Assembly: GCF_009687865.1 (NCBI RefSeq)
Contig: NZ_BLAE01000052.1
Coordinates: forward strand, 8,644 to 72,643
DNA length: 64,000 bases
Origin: Acrocarpospora macrocephala
GTDB lineage: Bacteria > Actinomycetota > Actinomycetes > Streptosporangiales > Streptosporangiaceae
Direction: 5' to 3'
Positions 23,138 through 43,438 of the stretch are shown here, in pieces. Made by a program: the position numbers and the translations under genes. Position 1 is the first letter of the stretch; every line of letters begins with the position of its first letter. The notes below the pieces were generated by a model. That model did not search any database, was not told the origin of the DNA, and saw only the letters and a list, made by a program, of their open reading frames with translations.

Positions 23138-24351
23138 TGGAGCACGAGGTCGAGGACCTGCTGCGGCAGTGCGCGCCGCAGGTCCTCGGCGCGCTCGTCC
23201 GGCGTTACGGGAATTTCGACACAGCCGAGGACGCGGTCCAGGAAGCCCTCCTGGCCGCCGCCGTCCAGTGGCCGAAAGAGGGACTCCCGGACAACCCGCA
23301 GTCCTGGCTGATCACGGTCGCCTCGCGCCGGTTGACCGATTTGCTCCGCGCCCAGCAGGCCCGCCGGCGCCGCGAGGAGACCGTAGCCCAATGGACGCTG
23401 CAGGACGCGGACCGGACGGTGGAGGATTCCGACGACACGCTCATCCTGCTGTTCCTGTGCTGCCACCCGTCGCTGTCGGCGGCCTCCCAGATCGCGCTCA
23501 CCCTGCGCGCCGTCGGCGGCCTGACCACCGCGGAGATCGCCCGCGCGTTCCTGGTGCCGGAATCGACGATGACCCGGCGTATCACCCGGGCCAAGCAGCG
23601 CATCAAGGACAGCGGGCTCGCGTTCCGCATGCCGTCAGGGCCGGAGCGCGCCGAACGGCTCGGCGTGGTCCTGCACGTGCTCTACCTGATCTTCAATGAG
23701 GGGTACGCGACCACGTCGGGACCCACGCTGCACCGGCGGGAACTCTCCGCCGAGGCCATCCGGCTGGCCCGCCTGGTCCACCGGCTGCTCCCCGAGGACG
23801 GCGAGGTGGCCGGTCTGCTGGCCCTGATGCTGCTCACCGACGCGCGCCGGCCCGCCCGCAGCGGCCCCGACGGCTCGCTCATCCCGATGGCCGAGCAGGA
23901 TCGCAGCCGCTGGGACGCAGGGCTCATCACCGAGGGCGTACGCCTGATCAGCGACGCCCTCCCACGCGGCGCGACCGGCCCCTACCAGCTGCAGGCGGCC
24001 ATCGCGGCCGTCCACGACGAGGCCGAGAGCGCGGAAACCACCGACTGGCCGCAAATCATGGCCTTGTACGGCGTTCTCCTGCGCATATCCCCCAACCCCA
24101 TGGTCGCCCTCAACCACGCCGTAGCGGTGGCCATGGTCCACGGCCCCCAGGCCGGTCTGACCCTGCTAGCCGACCTCGACGACCGGCTAGCCGACGACCA
24201 CCGGCTCCACGCGGTCCGGGCGCACCTGCTGGAGATGGCCGGAGACCGTACCGCCGCACGGGAGTGTTACCTAGCGGCGGCCCGGCGCACGATGAGCCTG
24301 CCCCAGCAGCGGTATCTGCACGCGCGCGCCGCCCGGCTGGCCGGGGAGTAG
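23137..24351 (+). CDS. ECF42-group RNA polymerase sigma factor
   Basis: A 404-residue alternative sigma factor. Region 2 (AEDAVQEALLAAAVQWPKEGLPDNPQSWL) and region 4 (GLTTAEIARAFLVPESTMTRRITRAKQRI) occupy the first 185 residues. The remaining 220 residues are the helical, TPR-like extension with the GYATTSGP and LNHAVAVAMVHGP motifs that define ECF42. The extension is thought to control sigma activity in place of an anti-sigma factor. It has the normal length for the group, unlike the fused paralogue at 39775-41790. Confidence 0.93.
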   Translation: MEHEVEDLLRQCAPQVLGALVRRYGNFDTAEDAVQEALLAAAVQWPKEGLPDNPQSWLITVASRRLTDLLRAQQARRRREETVAQWTLQDADRTVEDSDDTLILLFLCCHPSLSAASQIALTLRAVGGLTTAEIARAFLVPESTMTRRITRAKQRIKDSGLAFRMPSGPERAERLGVVLHVLYLIFNEGYATTSGPTLHRRELSAEAIRLARLVHRLLPEDGEVAGLLALMLLTDARRPARSGPDGSLIPMAEQDRSRWDAGLITEGVRLISDALPRGATGPYQLQAAIAAVHDEAESAETTDWPQIMALYGVLLRISPNPMVALNHAVAVAMVHGPQAGLTLLADLDDRLADDHRLHAVRAHLLEMAGDRTAARECYLAAARRTMSLPQQRYLHARAARLAGE

Positions 24352-24404
24352 TGGGCGCATAGGGTGGCTACCGGAGCGGATCACTCGCCCTCGGAAGGAC
24401 ACAG

Positions 24405-25262
24405 GTGTCGACGGTTCAGCGAATCACCACGCGCAATGCTCGGTTCCAGCAGTGGCAGTCCCTGCTGACCAACCGCAACAAACGGTCCCGAGCTCGCGAA
24501 TTCCTGGTCCAGGGGGTCCGTCCGATCTCGCTCGCGGTGCAGCACGGCTGGCCTGTCCACGCGCTCATCTACGACGCCGAGCGCAAGCCGTCGAAGTGGC
24601 TGGAGGAGTTGCTGGGCACGGTGCGGGCCGACCGGATCGCGATGGCTCCCGAGATGGTGGCGGAGCTGGGCGAGAAGAACGAGGAGCCGCCCGAGGCCGT
24701 CGCCGTCGTGGAAATGCCCGCCGACGACCTCGGCCGTATCCCGGTCGAGGACGACTTCCTGGGGGTCGTGTTGGACCGGCCGACGAGTCCGGGCAACATC
24801 GGCAGCATCATCCGCTCGGCGGACGCCCTGGGCGCGCACGGGCTGATCGTGGCCGGTCACGCCGCCGACGTGTACGACCCGAAGTCAGTCAGGGCGAGCA
24901 CGGGCTCGCTCTTCTCCCTGCCCGCGGTCCGGGTCCCCGCGCCGAGCGACGTGGTCGGCTGGGTGGCCGCGCAGCGTAACCGTGGCCGGCCGATCGTCGT
25001 GGTGGGTACCGACGAGCACGGCGACTGCGATGTCTTCGACTTCGACTTCACCCAGCCGGCGCTCCTCCTGATCGGCAACGAGACCAGCGGGCTCAGCAGC
25101 GCGTGGCGCGAGGCGTGCGACTTCATGGTGGGCATTCCCATGGTCGGGGCGGCGAGCTCGCTGAACGCCGCGAACGCGGCCACCGCGCTCCTTTATGAGG
25201 TATCCCGGCAGCGGATCACCGTTGCGGGGAGCGGCCGGCTCCCACGAGGTCGGCGGCGGTGA
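24405..25262 (+). CDS. aviRb: AviRb-like 23S rRNA 2'-O-methyltransferase (SpoU/TrmH family)
   Basis: SAM-dependent RNA ribose methylase with a C-terminal trefoil knot: motif 1 RPTSPGNIGSIIRSADALGA, motif 2 LLLIGNETSGL, motif 3 SLNAANAATALLYE. Beyond the family motifs, the N-terminal substrate-binding domain (TTRNARFQQWQSLLTNRNKR, VRPISLAVQHGWPV) closely follows AviRb of Streptomyces viridochromogenes, as I recall that sequence. AviRb methylates U2479 of 23S rRNA and gives avilamycin resistance. The GTG start at 24405 follows GGAAGGA. It is tail-to-tail with an AviRa homologue, overlapping by 47 bp. Confidence 0.85.
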   Translation: MSTVQRITTRNARFQQWQSLLTNRNKRSRAREFLVQGVRPISLAVQHGWPVHALIYDAERKPSKWLEELLGTVRADRIAMAPEMVAELGEKNEEPPEAVAVVEMPADDLGRIPVEDDFLGVVLDRPTSPGNIGSIIRSADALGAHGLIVAGHAADVYDPKSVRASTGSLFSLPAVRVPAPSDVVGWVAAQRNRGRPIVVVGTDEHGDCDVFDFDFTQPALLLIGNETSGLSSAWREACDFMVGIPMVGAASSLNAANAATALLYEVSRQRITVAGSGRLPRGRRR

Positions 25263-39045: not shown

Positions 39046-39826
39046 ATGGACCTCCGGCGAGAAGGGGTAATCGACCCGCACGCCGGGCGGGCCCTGGCGG
39101 GGCTGCTCGGCGTTGAGGCGGTCGCGGCGGGGGAGCCGGGCGGATCGTTGCCGCCGATGTGGCATTGGGTGCAGCTGCTGGACGAGTGGCGGCAGGACGA
39201 GCTCGGGCCGGACGGGCATCCACTGGCGGGGCAGCCCGGGCCTGGCAGGACGCGGATGTTCGCCGGGGGCCGGACGCGGCATCTGCGTCCGCTACGGGTG
39301 GGTGAGACGGCCATGCGGAGCAGTGGGGTGGTCGCGTCGGTGGATAAGACCGGCCGATCAGGGCCGCTGACATTCGTGACGGTACGCCACGAGTTCCGGC
39401 AGGGCGGCGAGCTGGCGATCACGGAGGAACAGGACATCGTGTACCAGCCTCCGGGGGTTTTGCCGACGACCGACGGGGGTTTGCCGATGGGCGAACCGCG
39501 GTTCGTTTTCGACGTCGATCCGGTGGTGTTGTTCCGGTTCTCGGCGCTCACGTATAACGCGCATCGCATTCACTATGACCATCGCTTCGCCGCAGCCGAG
39601 GGATACGCCGATCTAGTGGTGCACGGACCATTGCTGATTGTGCTCATGGCGGAGCTTTTCCGGCGTTATGGGGCGGGATTTGGCTGGACCGGAATTCCGA
39701 TATCGGCTGCTGGCGCCCGCCCTCGGGCCGCAGCGACTGACCGTGGCCATGGCCGGGCCCGACGCGGCCGAGGTCTATGACGGTGACGGCTGCCGGGTGG
39801 CGGAGGGTTCTGTCAGTCGCAGTTGA
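39046..39826 (+). pseudogene. Frameshifted MaoC/FAS1-like dehydratase
   Basis: Hotdog-fold acyl dehydratase or hydratase of the MaoC-like type. The first frame carries the full N-terminal domain and the catalytic region (FRFSALTYNAHRIHYDHRFAAAEGYADLVVHGPLL). After AELFRRYG (about 39670) it loses similarity, while the frame shifted by one base resumes with EFRYRLLAPALGPQRLTVAMAGPD to the stop at 39826. One extra base in the G- and T-rich run at 39668-39690 explains this. ATG 39046 has AAGGG upstream. Its corrected end overlaps the sigma-recombinase gene by 52 bp. A sequencing error is possible. Confidence 0.75.
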
Positions 39827-41790
39827 TAGAAGGTGTTGCCATGCGACGCCTGTTTGAACAAGTACTCCGCCCGTTCGTAGGACAGGCGGCGGCGGCCTGT
39901 CTCCGGGCATATGTCGCGGGCGGGCGGCATGCGGGCCGGGGCGGGTTTGCGGTCGGCGAGGAACACGGGTCCGCGGTGGCGGTTGGCGATGAGCTGGGGG
40001 AGCAGTGCGGCCGTCTTGGGTCCCCAGTGCACGCCGCGGCCGTGTCCGCCGTCGAGATCCAGGTCCTCGATGTCGAGGGACAGGGCCAGGGCGGCTCCGG
40101 CCGCGCTCTCGTAGAGCATCGCCCAGAGGGTGCGCTCGCGCAGGGGGAGGCCGGGGTGGGTGAGCAGGGTTTCGACGTGGGCGGGGTCCATGCCGCGGGT
40201 CCTGCCGCGTGGTTCGGGGCGCCGGTCGAGGCCGGCGGACAGGTTGGCGGCGGTCCAGCCCTGGTCGCGCCGGGCCCATGCGGTGAAGGAGCGGACGGCG
40301 GCGCGATGCCGGTTCCAGGTCGCGTCCGCGGCCCCGCCCCACACGGCCGCGAAGGCCGCCGCGATCCGCGCGGCCGTGAGATCGGGCAGGGCCATCTCCC
40401 CGCCGACCTGCCGGACCAGGCGGTTCATCGTCTGGCCGTAGGCGCGCAGGGTCGCGGGATCCAGGTCGTCGCGGGCCAGGAAGGCGGCGACCGCGTGCGA
40501 GAGGGTGACCGCGTCGGCTCGCTCTTCGCAGGCGGCGGCGCGTTTCAGCAGGATCGCGCGTTCGGGGGCGTTCTGGGTGAGCGAGGCCGCGCGTTCGAAC
40601 TCGGCGCGCGCTTCCGCGTTGCGGCCGAGCTTGGCCAGCAGGTCACCGCGCACGCCCGGCAGCAGGTGGTAGCCGCGCATCGCCGGTTCGGCGAGCAGCG
40701 GATCGGCCAACGCCAGGCCGGCCTCGGGCCCGTCCGCCATCGCGACCGCGACCGCCCGGTTGAGCCGCACGACCGGGGTGGGCAGCACCCGGGACAACGC
40801 CTCGTAGAGCGACGCGATCCGCGCCCAGTCGGTTTCCTCCGCGGTGGGGGCCTGGGCGTGGCAGACCGCGATCGCGGCCTGGAGCATGTACGGGCCGAGC
40901 GGGCCACCGGCGGCCCCGGCCTGGAGCAGTGCCGTCATGCCCCGGCGGATGAGCAGCCGATCCCAGCGCCCCCGGTTCTGCTCGTGCAGCGGGATCGGCT
41001 CGCCCTCGGGTCCGGTGCGGGCCTCGGCGCGCGACGCCTGCAGTTCCATCAACGCGACAAGGCCATGCACCTCGGCTTCGCCGGGCGTGAGCTGGGCCAG
41101 CAACCGGCCGAGCCGCAGCGCCTCCAGGCACAGCCCGGGCCGCATCAAGTCCTCGCCCGCCGTGGCCGCGTATCCTTCGTTGAACACGAGGTAGATGACC
41201 TCGAGCACCGAGGAGAGCCGGGCCTCGCGGTCCCGCTCCGCGGGCACCTCGAACGGGATCCGCCGGGCGGCCAGCGTGCGCTTGGCCCGCACGATCCGCT
41301 GCGCGACCACGGCCTCCGACACCAGGAACGCGCGCGCGATCTCCTCCGTTCGCAGCCCGCCGACGAGCCGCAACGTCAGTGCCACCCGCGCCCCGGTGGA
41401 CAGGGCGGGGTGGCAGGAGATGAACATCAGCCGCAGGACGTCGTCGCCGACCCCGCCATCGAGGTCGTCGAGCGCCGCGTCCAGGTCGTCCGCGCCGGGG
41501 TCCGGCCGGACCGCGAGTTCGTGGGCCAGCTTCTCGTTCCCGCGGTCCAGCCGTCCGGCGCGGCGCAGATGGTCGACAGCCCTGCGCTTGGCGATGGCCA
41601 TCAGCCAGGCGCCCGGATTGTCCGGGACGCCTGACTCCGGCCACCGCTCCAGCGCGGCCAGGAGCGCGTCCTGCGCGAACTCCTCGGCCAGACTGACATC
41701 CCCCGCAATCCGGACGAGACCAGCGATGATCCTCGCGGACTCCAGCTTCCACACTCCGTCGACAGCGGCGTGCGCGTCCCACGACGTCAT
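39775..41790 (-). CDS. ECF42 sigma factor fused to a degenerate tyrosine recombinase domain
   Basis: A single open frame of 671 codons. Residues 1-424 are a full ECF42 sigma factor: region 2 (LAEEFAQDALLAALERWPESGVPDNPGAWL), region 4 (GLRTEEIARAFLVSEAVVAQRIVRAKRTL) and the TPR-like extension (LVFNEGYAATAGEDL, RLNRAVAVAMADGP). Residues about 425-659 match tyrosine recombinases: a core-binding domain (DPATLRAYGQTMNRLVRQVG) and the start of the catalytic domain (RTLWAMLYESAAGAALALSL, GPVFLADRKPAPARMPPARD, CPETGRRRLSYERAEYLFKQ). The box I Arg is missing, box II reads YQLR instead of HQLR, and the chain ends before the Tyr nucleophile. The recombinase part is probably inactive but might bind DNA. 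Confidence 0.85.
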   Translation of the reverse strand: MTSWDAHAAVDGVWKLESARIIAGLVRIAGDVSLAEEFAQDALLAALERWPESGVPDNPGAWLMAIAKRRAVDHLRRAGRLDRGNEKLAHELAVRPDPGADDLDAALDDLDGGVGDDVLRLMFISCHPALSTGARVALTLRLVGGLRTEEIARAFLVSEAVVAQRIVRAKRTLAARRIPFEVPAERDREARLSSVLEVIYLVFNEGYAATAGEDLMRPGLCLEALRLGRLLAQLTPGEAEVHGLVALMELQASRAEARTGPEGEPIPLHEQNRGRWDRLLIRRGMTALLQAGAAGGPLGPYMLQAAIAVCHAQAPTAEETDWARIASLYEALSRVLPTPVVRLNRAVAVAMADGPEAGLALADPLLAEPAMRGYHLLPGVRGDLLAKLGRNAEARAEFERAASLTQNAPERAILLKRAAACEERADAVTLSHAVAAFLARDDLDPATLRAYGQTMNRLVRQVGGEMALPDLTAARIAAAFAAVWGGAADATWNRHRAAVRSFTAWARRDQGWTAANLSAGLDRRPEPRGRTRGMDPAHVETLLTHPGLPLRERTLWAMLYESAAGAALALSLDIEDLDLDGGHGRGVHWGPKTAALLPQLIANRHRGPVFLADRKPAPARMPPARDICPETGRRRLSYERAEYLFKQASHGNTFYQLRLTEPSATRQPSPS

Positions 41791-42083
41791 AATCGGATCA
41801 TCGCCTCAGCTCCCAGATTCCGTCGGTCGTGGTGTGCGCGTTCCGCGACGTTGTGATCGGATGATCGGAATCATCGCCTCAGCTTTCAGATTCCGTCGAT
41901 CGTGGTGTGCGCATCCCGCGACGTCGTGATCGGATCATCAGCTTCCGGATTCCGTCGGTCGTGGTGTGCGCGTTCCGCGACGTTGTGATCGGATCATTGG
42001 AATCATCGCCTCAGCTTTCAGACTCCGTCGATCGTGGTGTGCGCGTCCCACGATGTCCTGATCGGATCACCGGAATCATTGCC
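41743..42083. repeat. Tandem array derived from the 5' end of the sigma-recombinase gene
   Basis: Five copies start at 41743, 41807, 41880, 41939 and 42012. The first covers codons 1-16 of the sigma gene. The other four fill the 309-bp spacer to the YCII gene. Copies 2 and 4 are identical over about 45 nt, and copies 3 and 5 resemble each other, so a 132-bp dimer was duplicated. Read on the minus strand, the second copy gives TSRNAHTTTDGIWEL against the gene's TSWDAHAAVDGVWKL. The ATG is lost in all four spacer copies. Confidence 0.85.
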
Positions 42084-42099: not shown

Positions 42100-42426
42100 T
42101 TATTCGGGGCCGTACACCTGCTGCATGTCGCCTACGCCGTCGCCGATGATCTTCCAGAAGCGGCGGGTGAGTTCGATGGCCTCCTCCTTGGAGCGGACCT
42201 CGATCAGTGCGAAGCTGACGATCGCCTCTCGTGCCTCGGCGAAAGGGCCGTCGGTGATGGTGATGTCGCCGCCGGAGGCGGTGATGTGGGTGCCTGCGGG
42301 GTCCAGGCCGCCGGTCGCCAACAGCACGCCGGCCTTGGTCATCTCCTCCACGAACTTGCCCATCTCCGCGTAGAGCGCCTCGTCCGGAGCCGGTCCGCCG
42401 CCCTTCATGGTCATCAGGAATCGCAT
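42100..42426 (-). CDS. YCII/DGPF-domain protein linked to the fused ECF42 factor
   Basis: A 108-residue protein with the YCII signature TITDGPFAEAREAIVSFALIEV and the start MRFLMTMKGGG. AAGGAG lies six bases before ATG 42426. In normal ECF42 loci this gene overlaps or abuts the sigma gene; here 309 bp of tandem repeats separate them. Function unknown. Confidence 0.9.
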   Translation of the reverse strand: MRFLMTMKGGGPAPDEALYAEMGKFVEEMTKAGVLLATGGLDPAGTHITASGGDITITDGPFAEAREAIVSFALIEVRSKEEAIELTRRFWKIIGDGVGDMQQVYGPE

Positions 42427-42465: not shown

Positions 42466-42494
42466 GCGTCGCACGACCGGCACCGAAATCGACC
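42466..42494 (-). promoter_or_regulatory. Candidate ECF42-type promoter of the second YCII gene
   Basis: On the minus strand GGTCGA-N17-CGACGC, 40 bp upstream of the ATG. The spacing and -10 core equal those of the element at 22667-22694 before the other YCII gene. Confidence 0.5.
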
Positions 42495-42526
42495 GACTCT
42501 CGCCTGACCTGGGATTCGTCGGGATG

Positions 42527-42565
42527 TGACAGGTAATGCATCCCTCAACATATGACAGGTAATGC
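42527..42565. repeat. Direct repeat TGACAGGTAATGC, two copies
   Basis: Identical 13-mers at 42527-42539 and 42553-42565, 26 bp apart (start to start), lie in the divergent spacer between the YCII and DUF998 genes. The spacing is about two and a half helical turns. Possible regulator binding sites. Confidence 0.5.
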
Positions 42566-42646: not shown

Positions 42647-42754
42647 GAGGCCGGTTCGACCGGCAACGTCACCGAAGCCGGTTCGACCGGCAACGTCACC
42701 GAAGCCGGTTCGACCGGCCATGCCACCGAAGCCGGTTCGACCGGCCATGCCATT
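42647..42754. repeat. Four tandem 27-bp units, each with a perfect palindrome
   Basis: Units start at 42647, 42674, 42701 and 42728. Each contains GCCGGTTCGACCGGC, a 6-bp stem with a TCG loop; the last nine bases vary (AACGTCACC or CATGCCACC/ATT). The array ends 15 bp before the DUF998 ATG and is in phase with it, but no start codon opens that frame upstream. It could act as an mRNA leader structure or as a protein-binding array. Confidence 0.85.
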
Positions 42755-42769
42755 GAAAAGGACTCGGCC

Positions 42770-43438
42770 ATGACTGCCACCAACACCAGCACCCCGATCG
42801 GCACCAGCACCCCGACCAGTACGCGCACGCTTCTCATTGCGGCCGCGCTGGTTGCCCCCGTCTACGGGATCGTCTCCTATGGCCAGGCCTTCACCCGGGA
42901 GAGCTTCGACCTGACCCGCCACCCGCTCAGCGTGCTGAGCAACGGTGACCTCGGCTGGCTCCAGATCAGCACATTCGTGGTCATGGGTGTCCTGGCCGTC
43001 GCCGGATCGATCGGCCTCCGCCGCGCGCTGCGCGGCCGGTTGGGTGGCGTCTGGGCTCCCCGGCTGGTCCTGGTGTTCGGCGTCACCACCGTCCTGGCCG
43101 GGATCTTCACGATGGACCCGATGGACGGTTTCCCGACCGGCACTCCCCTCGGCATGCCGGCCTCGATGAGCTGGCACAGCATCGCGCACAACGCCTCCGC
43201 CTCGATCGGCTTCACCGCGCTCATCGTGGCCTGCTTCATCTTCGGCCGCCACTACAGCCAGGCCGGCCGAACCGGATACGCGGCGGGCTCGGTGGCCAGC
43301 GCGGTGATCTTCCTCGCCGGGGAGGTCTGGGCGATCTCGGGCGGGCACGCGGGCGCGCTCACCCTCGGCGTCGGGGCGCTGGTGGCCGTCTCCTGGCTCA
43401 CCGTCGTCGCCCTGGACAAGCGCGCCGAACTCCGCTGA
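42770..43438 (+). CDS. DUF998 family membrane protein
   Basis: A 222-residue protein with about six transmembrane helices and the DUF998 features FDLTRHPLSVLSNGDLGWLQ and MSWHSIAHNASASIGF. The Thr-rich N-terminus (TNTSTPIGTSTPTSTRT) precedes the first helix. AAAAGGA lies eight bases before ATG 42770. The four-unit palindromic array is directly upstream. Function unknown. Confidence 0.88.
   Translation: MTATNTSTPIGTSTPTSTRTLLIAAALVAPVYGIVSYGQAFTRESFDLTRHPLSVLSNGDLGWLQISTFVVMGVLAVAGSIGLRRALRGRLGGVWAPRLVLVFGVTTVLAGIFTMDPMDGFPTGTPLGMPASMSWHSIAHNASASIGFTALIVACFIFGRHYSQAGRTGYAAGSVASAVIFLAGEVWAISGGHAGALTLGVGALVAVSWLTVVALDKRAELR

Follow-up and report, generated by a model that had tools for sequence, protein, structure and literature searches.

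A recombinase domain fused to ECF42 sigma factors of actinomycetes, and its old site as a probable promoter element

Why should a sigma factor carry the remains of a recombinase at its end? The question is raised by a stretch of 64,000 nucleotides from the actinomycete Acrocarpospora macrocephala (contig NZ_BLAE01000052.1; genome of 12.1 Mb in 166 contigs), called the window in what follows, in which a single uninterrupted open reading frame (ORF) of 671 codons, starting with ATG, joins a sigma factor of the extracytoplasmic function (ECF) group ECF42 to a truncated tyrosine recombinase domain (table 1). The comparisons presented here suggest that an enzyme of mobile DNA has been tamed to help choose promoters. 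More precisely, we consider it quite probable that the recombinase, now domesticated, recognises its former site within promoters and thereby positions its own sigma factor. As a protein the fusion is a variant of ECF42, and its mode of promoter recognition would be new if this is true.

The fused protein and its distribution

Pfam recognises both regions of an ECF-type sigma-70 factor, Sigma70_r2 at residues 24-80 (E value 2e-9) and Sigma70_r4_2 at residues 122-173 (9e-9), followed by an ECF42-like extension of about 200 residues in which DUF6596 is significant (residues 191-291, 8e-36) and TPR, at about residues 380-414, remains below the Pfam threshold. The SAM-like core-binding domain of tyrosine recombinases is then found by Pfam and by profile search: Phage_int_SAM_1 matches residues 445-509 with an E value of 1.3e-4, barely above its cut-off (22.6 vs 22.3 bits), TIGR02224 (XerC) matches residues 443-581 with 5e-6, far under its own NCBIfam cut-off, and a profile of the C-terminal domain retrieves XerD (1a0p) from the PDB with 1e-11 when standalone relatives are included and with 1e-5 when it is built from nine fusions alone. 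The ORF and these matches confirm what the first-pass annotation of the window had seen, namely an ECF42 sigma factor and a dead tyrosine recombinase in one frame; it had placed the latter at residues 425-659, and the domain stands, with its end corrected by the last 12 residues, which had been omitted. The likeness to other ECF42 sigma factors, among which excerpts of PMC8999054 name Sven_0747 and ECF-10 of Pseudomonas putida, extends to regions 2 and 4, the DUF6596/TPR extension and the YCII/DGPF partner, to which the fusions add about 250 residues of dead recombinase and half-sites in the promoter. According to the same excerpts, other ECF42s need their C-terminal extension for activity (PMC8999054), and by analogy the extension probably still controls activity in the fusions.

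Among 60 relatives searched, eight further genomes, of which five belong to other genera, gave fused matches, with proteins that are 60-95% identical to that of the window and end near the same point at box II of the recombinase. These nine fusions align along their length and the ORF is conserved in the congeners L011, L012 and L013 (95, 79 and 82% identity), so that the frame is not due to chance. A contig scan with the nine C-terminal domains yielded 235 relatives, and the best 80 of these 235 are the loci named here: 71 uninterrupted fusions in one ORF, two fusions with a broken frame (L059 and L100) and seven standalone recombinases. The 71 span 26 named actinomycete genera (one record is placed to family only) in six families, and together with the window they form the 72 fusions of all trees and counts below. 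A fusion-type match occurs in 70 of the 297 genomes of an even family sample, according to a list made by hand with a chosen threshold (298 bits or more, in an open frame of 600 residues or longer); in a class sample, 35 of 394 genomes have a match at 1e-40, either fused or standalone.

The phylogeny of the two parts is concordant. All fusions fall on one side of one branch in the tree of the sigma part (72 fusions and 30 unfused ECF42 rows; Shimodaira-Hasegawa-like approximate likelihood ratio test, SH-aLRT, 99) and equally in that of the recombinase part (72 fusions and 22 standalone rows; SH-aLRT 97). Both trees, obtained by a quick method with midpoint root and no bootstrap, divide the fusions into the same clades of 20 and 52, the window belonging to the clade of 20, and thus fit a single fusion event with joint inheritance. 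The origin proposed at first, an ECF42 gene that lost its stop codon beside an integrase gene, appears plausible because the two parts are joined where ECF42 proteins end; the pair of separate adjacent genes that it implies was not seen, as the stretches of the seven standalone recombinases in the set of 80 contain no ECF42 gene.

The same domain exists in standalone tyrosine recombinases of actinomycetes (L052, L106, L155 and others; XerC/XerD-like, TIGR02224, 1a0p), which share the TWNRH and SYERAEYLFK stretches with the fusions but differ from them in having no sigma factor and in mostly keeping the catalytic set RKHRHY. Among 25 standalone rows, three of which are repeats, the box I Arg is present in 21, the beta-hairpin Lys in 18, the box II His in 23, the box II Arg in 24 and the third His and the Tyr nucleophile in all; the corresponding numbers for the 72 fusions are 4, 0, 15, 39, 9 and 2. 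In the protein of the window Gly565 stands at the position of the box I Arg and Tyr655 replaces the box II His, while Lys, third His and Tyr are absent, leaving Arg658 of box II as the sole catalytic residue; the losses of the box I Arg, the box II His and the nucleophile had been noted before and are borne out, with Lys and the third His to be added. Most other fusions also end at box II. Seven fusions of Microbispora keep box II and the third His, with Pro at the Arg and Phe at the Tyr position, L083 keeps the Tyr, and a fusion from a metagenome-assembled genome of Sphaerisporangium (L042:4774-6927) is the only one of the 72 in which Lys alone is missing. A tblastn search for the lost catalytic end with two recombinase C-termini covered 72 stretches, each starting 60 nt ahead of the end of the fusion ORF and extending 700 nt past it, and recovered nothing but the tails of L042 and L083, which are long fusions. 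The simplest reading of this residue pattern is an intact ancestor followed by repeated catalytic loss.

Loss of catalysis has left other residues in place, since invariant positions persist throughout the fused domain, as in the TWNRH stretch (T491-H495) of 53 fusions. In 17 chosen close pairs the ratio of nonsynonymous to synonymous substitution rates (dN/dS) ranges from 0.11 to 0.48 in the recombinase part and from 0.10 to 0.38 in the sigma part, and 16 of the 17 pairs have the lower value in the sigma part; the recombinase part is therefore under purifying selection, if weaker than that on the sigma part.

The half-site and its promoters

What could such a domain be conserved for? Upstream of the YCII gene the fused loci repeat a 13-mer, TTCCCTGTCACAT. 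Counted at a match of at least 11 of 13 letters, this half-site is present in 71 of 72 fused loci, and L040, L062, L064, L077, L108 and L110 have a single match apiece outside the control region; the 30 unfused ECF42 loci (123 kb) contain one match, in L033. The pattern TTMCCTGTCAYAT has just two matches in the whole genome of the window, both in the control region (table 1), and its reversed control has none. Across the family sample the half-site pattern is found in 68 of the 70 genomes with a listed fusion vs 37 of the 227 without, its reversed control in 4 of 297. The literature searches made here turned up neither a fusion of an ECF sigma factor with a recombinase nor this site in a bacterium. 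The letters of the half-site occur in two beetle papers.

The standalone recombinases share with the fusions both the half-site and its arrangement as an inverted repeat upstream of the gene. Twelve of the 23 distinct standalone loci have, near the gene, an inverted repeat of the 13-mer or of a close variant such as TTCTCTGTCACA, which ties the site to the recombinase family. A scan of all fetched loci for inverted repeats with an arm offset of 17-24 separates two kinds, with no overlap in offset and -10 features. The 47 repeats at fusions and their targets (41 at fused loci, six at two frame-broken fusions and four loci in trans) have an offset of 21 or 22, in one case 17, and one or two -10 elements, whereas the 20 others (12 at standalone recombinases and eight at further loci, three of which have a weak or partial recombinase match) have an offset of 19 or 20 and no -10 element; three fused loci have offsets of 25, 29 and 35, outside the scan. 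The fused version of the site therefore differs from the standalone one as a promoter would. Several standalone repeats have a third copy 77-89 bp away, and such triple sites are seen at L052, where a gene resembling pentapeptide-repeat proteins lies between the sites and the recombinase, L112, L155, L162, L163, L179, L180 and L181. Orphan sites of the standalone type (offset 19-20), with no recombinase or sigma match in 6 kb, occur at L178, L179, L180, L182 and L189.

A -35 element of the TGTCGA type with a CGACG -10 is taken here, from the unfused loci, as the promoter form of ECF42. Of the 13 unfused loci analysed, 6 show this form and one has a weak half-site (10/13). In the clade of 20 the form, [TGC]GTCGA-spacer-CGA[CT]G, is retained by 19 loci, the window included, and upstream of it lie two direct half-sites in 17 loci (offsets 17, 18, 26 or 27) and one in 3. 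The clade of 52, represented by 51 promoters because L096 has no YCII neighbour, lacks this form altogether (0/51). Instead, it has an inverted repeat of the half-site in 42 promoters and a single half-site in nine, the half-site ending 7-8 nt before a CGAC -10 in 45 of the 51; 38 of the 42 inverted repeats are flanked by a -10 at either end, an arrangement that would suit two divergent promoters. The geometry is fixed, and promoter class tracks protein clade. A palindrome was also sought in the window's own promoter and rejected, since its best inverted repeat is no better than those of shuffled sequences; direct half-sites are found there instead. In L151 and L059 the sigma and recombinase parts are in different frames, through either decay or sequencing error, and the promoter palindrome with both -10 elements is nevertheless present.

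The change of promoter has a parallel in sigma region 4, which was compared between the 52 proteins of this clade and 42 others (the clade of 20 plus 22 unfused ECF42s, leaving aside eight more distant paralogues of the own genome). Arg168 in the recognition helix is found in 42 of 42 vs 3 of 52 (L090, L110 and L119), and residue 167 is Ala in 49 of the 52. Over residues 15 to 186 the 42 proteins share 38 columns without variation; the 52 keep Arg168 in 6% of cases and each of the other columns in at least 83%. Arg168, which we take to occupy the same position as R186 of sigma-H, corresponds to R176 of sigma-E (E. coli, 2h27) in an alignment that is weak (E value 0.02) but colinear. Excerpts of the structural papers state that R176 and R173 of sigma-E bond G-35 (PMC6713349) and that R186 of sigma-H bonds G-34 (PMC6411747). 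Because the clade that mostly lost Arg168 is the one in which the TGTCGA-type -35 of ECF42 was replaced, promoter and protein have changed together.

Composite promoters also occur in trans. The pattern CCTGTCAYATN{6,8}TCGACG is present in 38 of the 297 genomes and its reversed control in none; 37 of the 38, as compared by eye, are on the fusion list. The remaining match, in G115, which has no listed fusion, was taken as due to chance, having no half-site palindrome and its nearest listed start 174 nt away. Eight composite promoters lie away from the fused gene (L172, L174, L176, L177, L187, L188, L192 and L193), each with a start codon 1-57 nt downstream, and precede genes of DUF998 (3), DUF1801 (3), RibD_C (1) and YCII (1), families that were confirmed by Pfam in five cases and named by likeness in three. 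In genome G245, the fused gene L096 (the same DNA as L146) is the sole one with no YCII neighbour, and a YCII gene lies elsewhere behind the composite promoter of L193. Genomes reached through the named loci added little, with the composite pattern in six of nine.

How the fusion may work, and other explanations

These observations would fit together if an ECF42 sigma factor had captured a site-specific tyrosine recombinase, the captured part then losing catalysis and keeping its sequence-specific binding to DNA. The fused domain would bind the 13-bp half-site of its family in promoters, those of its own operon and a few elsewhere, and would there place its own sigma factor and RNA polymerase; binding of the half-site, recruitment of polymerase and positive autoregulation are what we infer from the sequences. 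In the clade of the window (20 of 72), with its ordinary ECF42 promoter and one or two half-sites upstream, the domain could provide the sigma factor with a built-in activator. In the clade of 52 it would have taken over from the -35 contact, at a half-site that replaces the -35 and is mostly doubled into an inverted repeat; a -10 lies 7-8 nt beyond the arm, in most cases at either end, so that one palindrome might serve two divergent promoters. The early suggestion that a dead recombinase adds DNA specificity gains support from the family site in the promoters of the fusions, the loss of Arg168 and the promoters in trans. It also seems likely, albeit with somewhat less assurance, that in most of the family sigma region 4 has ceded recognition of the -35 to the fused domesticated recombinase, and that the old site, its spacer lengthened, became a palindromic and mostly bidirectional promoter element, the ordinary promoter with half-sites in the clade of the window representing perhaps an earlier stage.

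The promoter specificity of sigma factors is held to sit mainly in their regions 2 and 4, whereas in these fusions part of it appears to come from a transplanted third domain. The two stages, an ordinary promoter with half-sites and a palindrome in place of the -35 with loss of an arginine that reads it, exist in living species, which makes such rewiring of a sigma factor directly testable; the case would document how an enzyme of mobile DNA and its site can become a regulator and a promoter and, if true, define a promoter class with a long recognition sequence and naturally divergent output. ECF41 with SnoaL, ECF56 and CorE/ECF238 likewise are sigma factors with an extra fused domain, and their C-terminal extensions are described as regulating activity; for none of them do the excerpts of PMC8999054 name a sequence-specific DNA-binding domain with its own promoter site. 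A DNA-binding domain of tyrosine recombinases has also been recruited in the ALOG domains of plants, predicted transcription regulators according to excerpts of PMC3537659, which differ in being eukaryotic, in their origin from a DIRS1-like retroposon and in having no sigma-factor fusion.

How do other explanations fare? The fused domain might be a structural or protein-interaction module that does not read DNA, with some separate regulator or a standalone recombinase of the family binding the half-sites. ECF42 extensions are indeed thought to work via protein interaction (excerpts of PMC8999054), and sites of this kind accompany standalone relatives, some of which share a genome with a fusion. 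This explanation is nonetheless rather unlikely: the fusion is the only match to the domain at 1e-3 in the genome of the window (9 of 205 first-look candidates having been scored), yet both half-sites are there, promoter class and Arg168 follow the clade of the fused protein, and the unfused ECF42 loci lack the site but for their one match. It is much less probable that the half-sites are remnants of an ancient integration, old attachment sites with no regulatory role beside a drifting domain. Integrase genes often adjoin their site and the site does belong to the recombinase family, but the copies are nearly identical across six families, keep their distance to the -10 in 45 of the 51 promoters of the clade of 52, turn up in trans ahead of other genes and have another arm offset than the standalone sites, and the domain is under purifying selection. 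That the fusion still recombines, for instance as a switch inverting or excising promoter DNA, is even more remote; L042 with its Arg, His, Arg, His and Tyr and L083 with its Tyr would speak for it, whereas the Tyr is gone in 70 of 72 fusions and the window lacks in addition the box I Arg, Lys and both His, so that a working recombinase is possible at most for L042. Finally, the accident that had been envisaged at first, a recent loss of a stop codon, or an assembly error could draw upon the position of the junction at the end of ECF42 and upon the frame breaks of the two named loci and L151. It is refuted by the single frame in independent assemblies of 26 genera, by the monophyly of the fusions on one branch in two trees and by purifying selection, and deserves practically no credence.

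Several points weigh against the domesticated recombinase as a reader of promoters. The half-site was first seen in loci that were later counted, and the Fisher p of 4e-37 for its association with listed fusions ignores kinship; the standalone loci, the whole-genome counts, the sites in trans and Arg168 are independent of that discovery. Half-sites at 11/13 are missing from 10 of the 23 standalone loci, with one weak match in L160, and five of the eight further loci with an inverted repeat have no recombinase in the stretch taken. The window has no palindrome, only two direct half-sites with one and two changes. Covariation from arm to arm is weak (3 matched vs 38 unmatched changes) and was not used as proof of dimeric binding. 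The standalone clade nearest to the fusions is itself partly decayed, the box I Arg missing in four of six, and may thus not mark an active recombination site. Arg165, the counterpart of R173 of sigma-E for the same -35 base, is kept in 50 of the 52; not every -35 contact is gone in that clade. It is because of this partial decay and of Arg165 that we regard the proposal as quite probable and no more.

Neighbouring genes and other features of the window

A DGPF/YCII gene nearby is typical of the ECF42 group. The fused loci conform to this in 71 of 72 cases, the window included, with the gene upstream on the same strand, and in 59 of 72 they have a DUF998 gene as neighbour.

Table 1. Coordinates of the fused gene, its parts and its surroundings in the window
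Feature	Position	Strand	Basis
ECF42 sigma factor and truncated tyrosine recombinase domain in one ORF	39775..41790	-	ORF scan, Pfam, NCBIfam, alignment
Residues 1-424: sigma regions 2 and 4, DUF6596/TPR extension of ECF42	40519..41790	-	Pfam
Codon of Arg168, kept as Arg	41287-41289	-	Alignment with E. coli sigma-E Arg176
Residues 425-671: recombinase core-binding domain and first part of catalytic domain	39778..40518	-	Pfam, profile search, alignment
YCII/DGPF-type gene, 108 residues, 309 nt upstream of the sigma start	42100..42426	-	Neighbourhood comparison
Predicted ECF42-type promoter GGTCGATTTCGGTGCCGGTCGTGCGACG, -35 GGTCGA, -10 around GCGACG	42467..42494	-	Sequence reading
Half-site TTACCTGTCACAT, 12 of 13 consensus letters	42524..42536	-	Motif search
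Second half-site TTACCTGTCATAT, a direct repeat 26 bp upstream of the first, 11 of 13 consensus letters	42550..42562	-	Motif search
DUF998 membrane-protein gene, divergent	42770..43438	+	Neighbourhood comparison

Three further observations concern the window itself. Degenerate tandem copies at 41743-42083, with periods of about 59, 73 and 132 bp, run across the 309-nt gap between the YCII and sigma genes and take in the first sigma codons, as if the 5' end had been repeatedly copied. Between the half-sites and the DUF998 start, at 42650-42745, a 27-bp unit is repeated 3.6 times with 95% match, and GGTTCGACCGG is contained in every unit. On the forward strand, at about 23173-24480, an ECF42-like stretch is 42% identical to residues 18-472 of the fused protein and has two in-frame stops inside.

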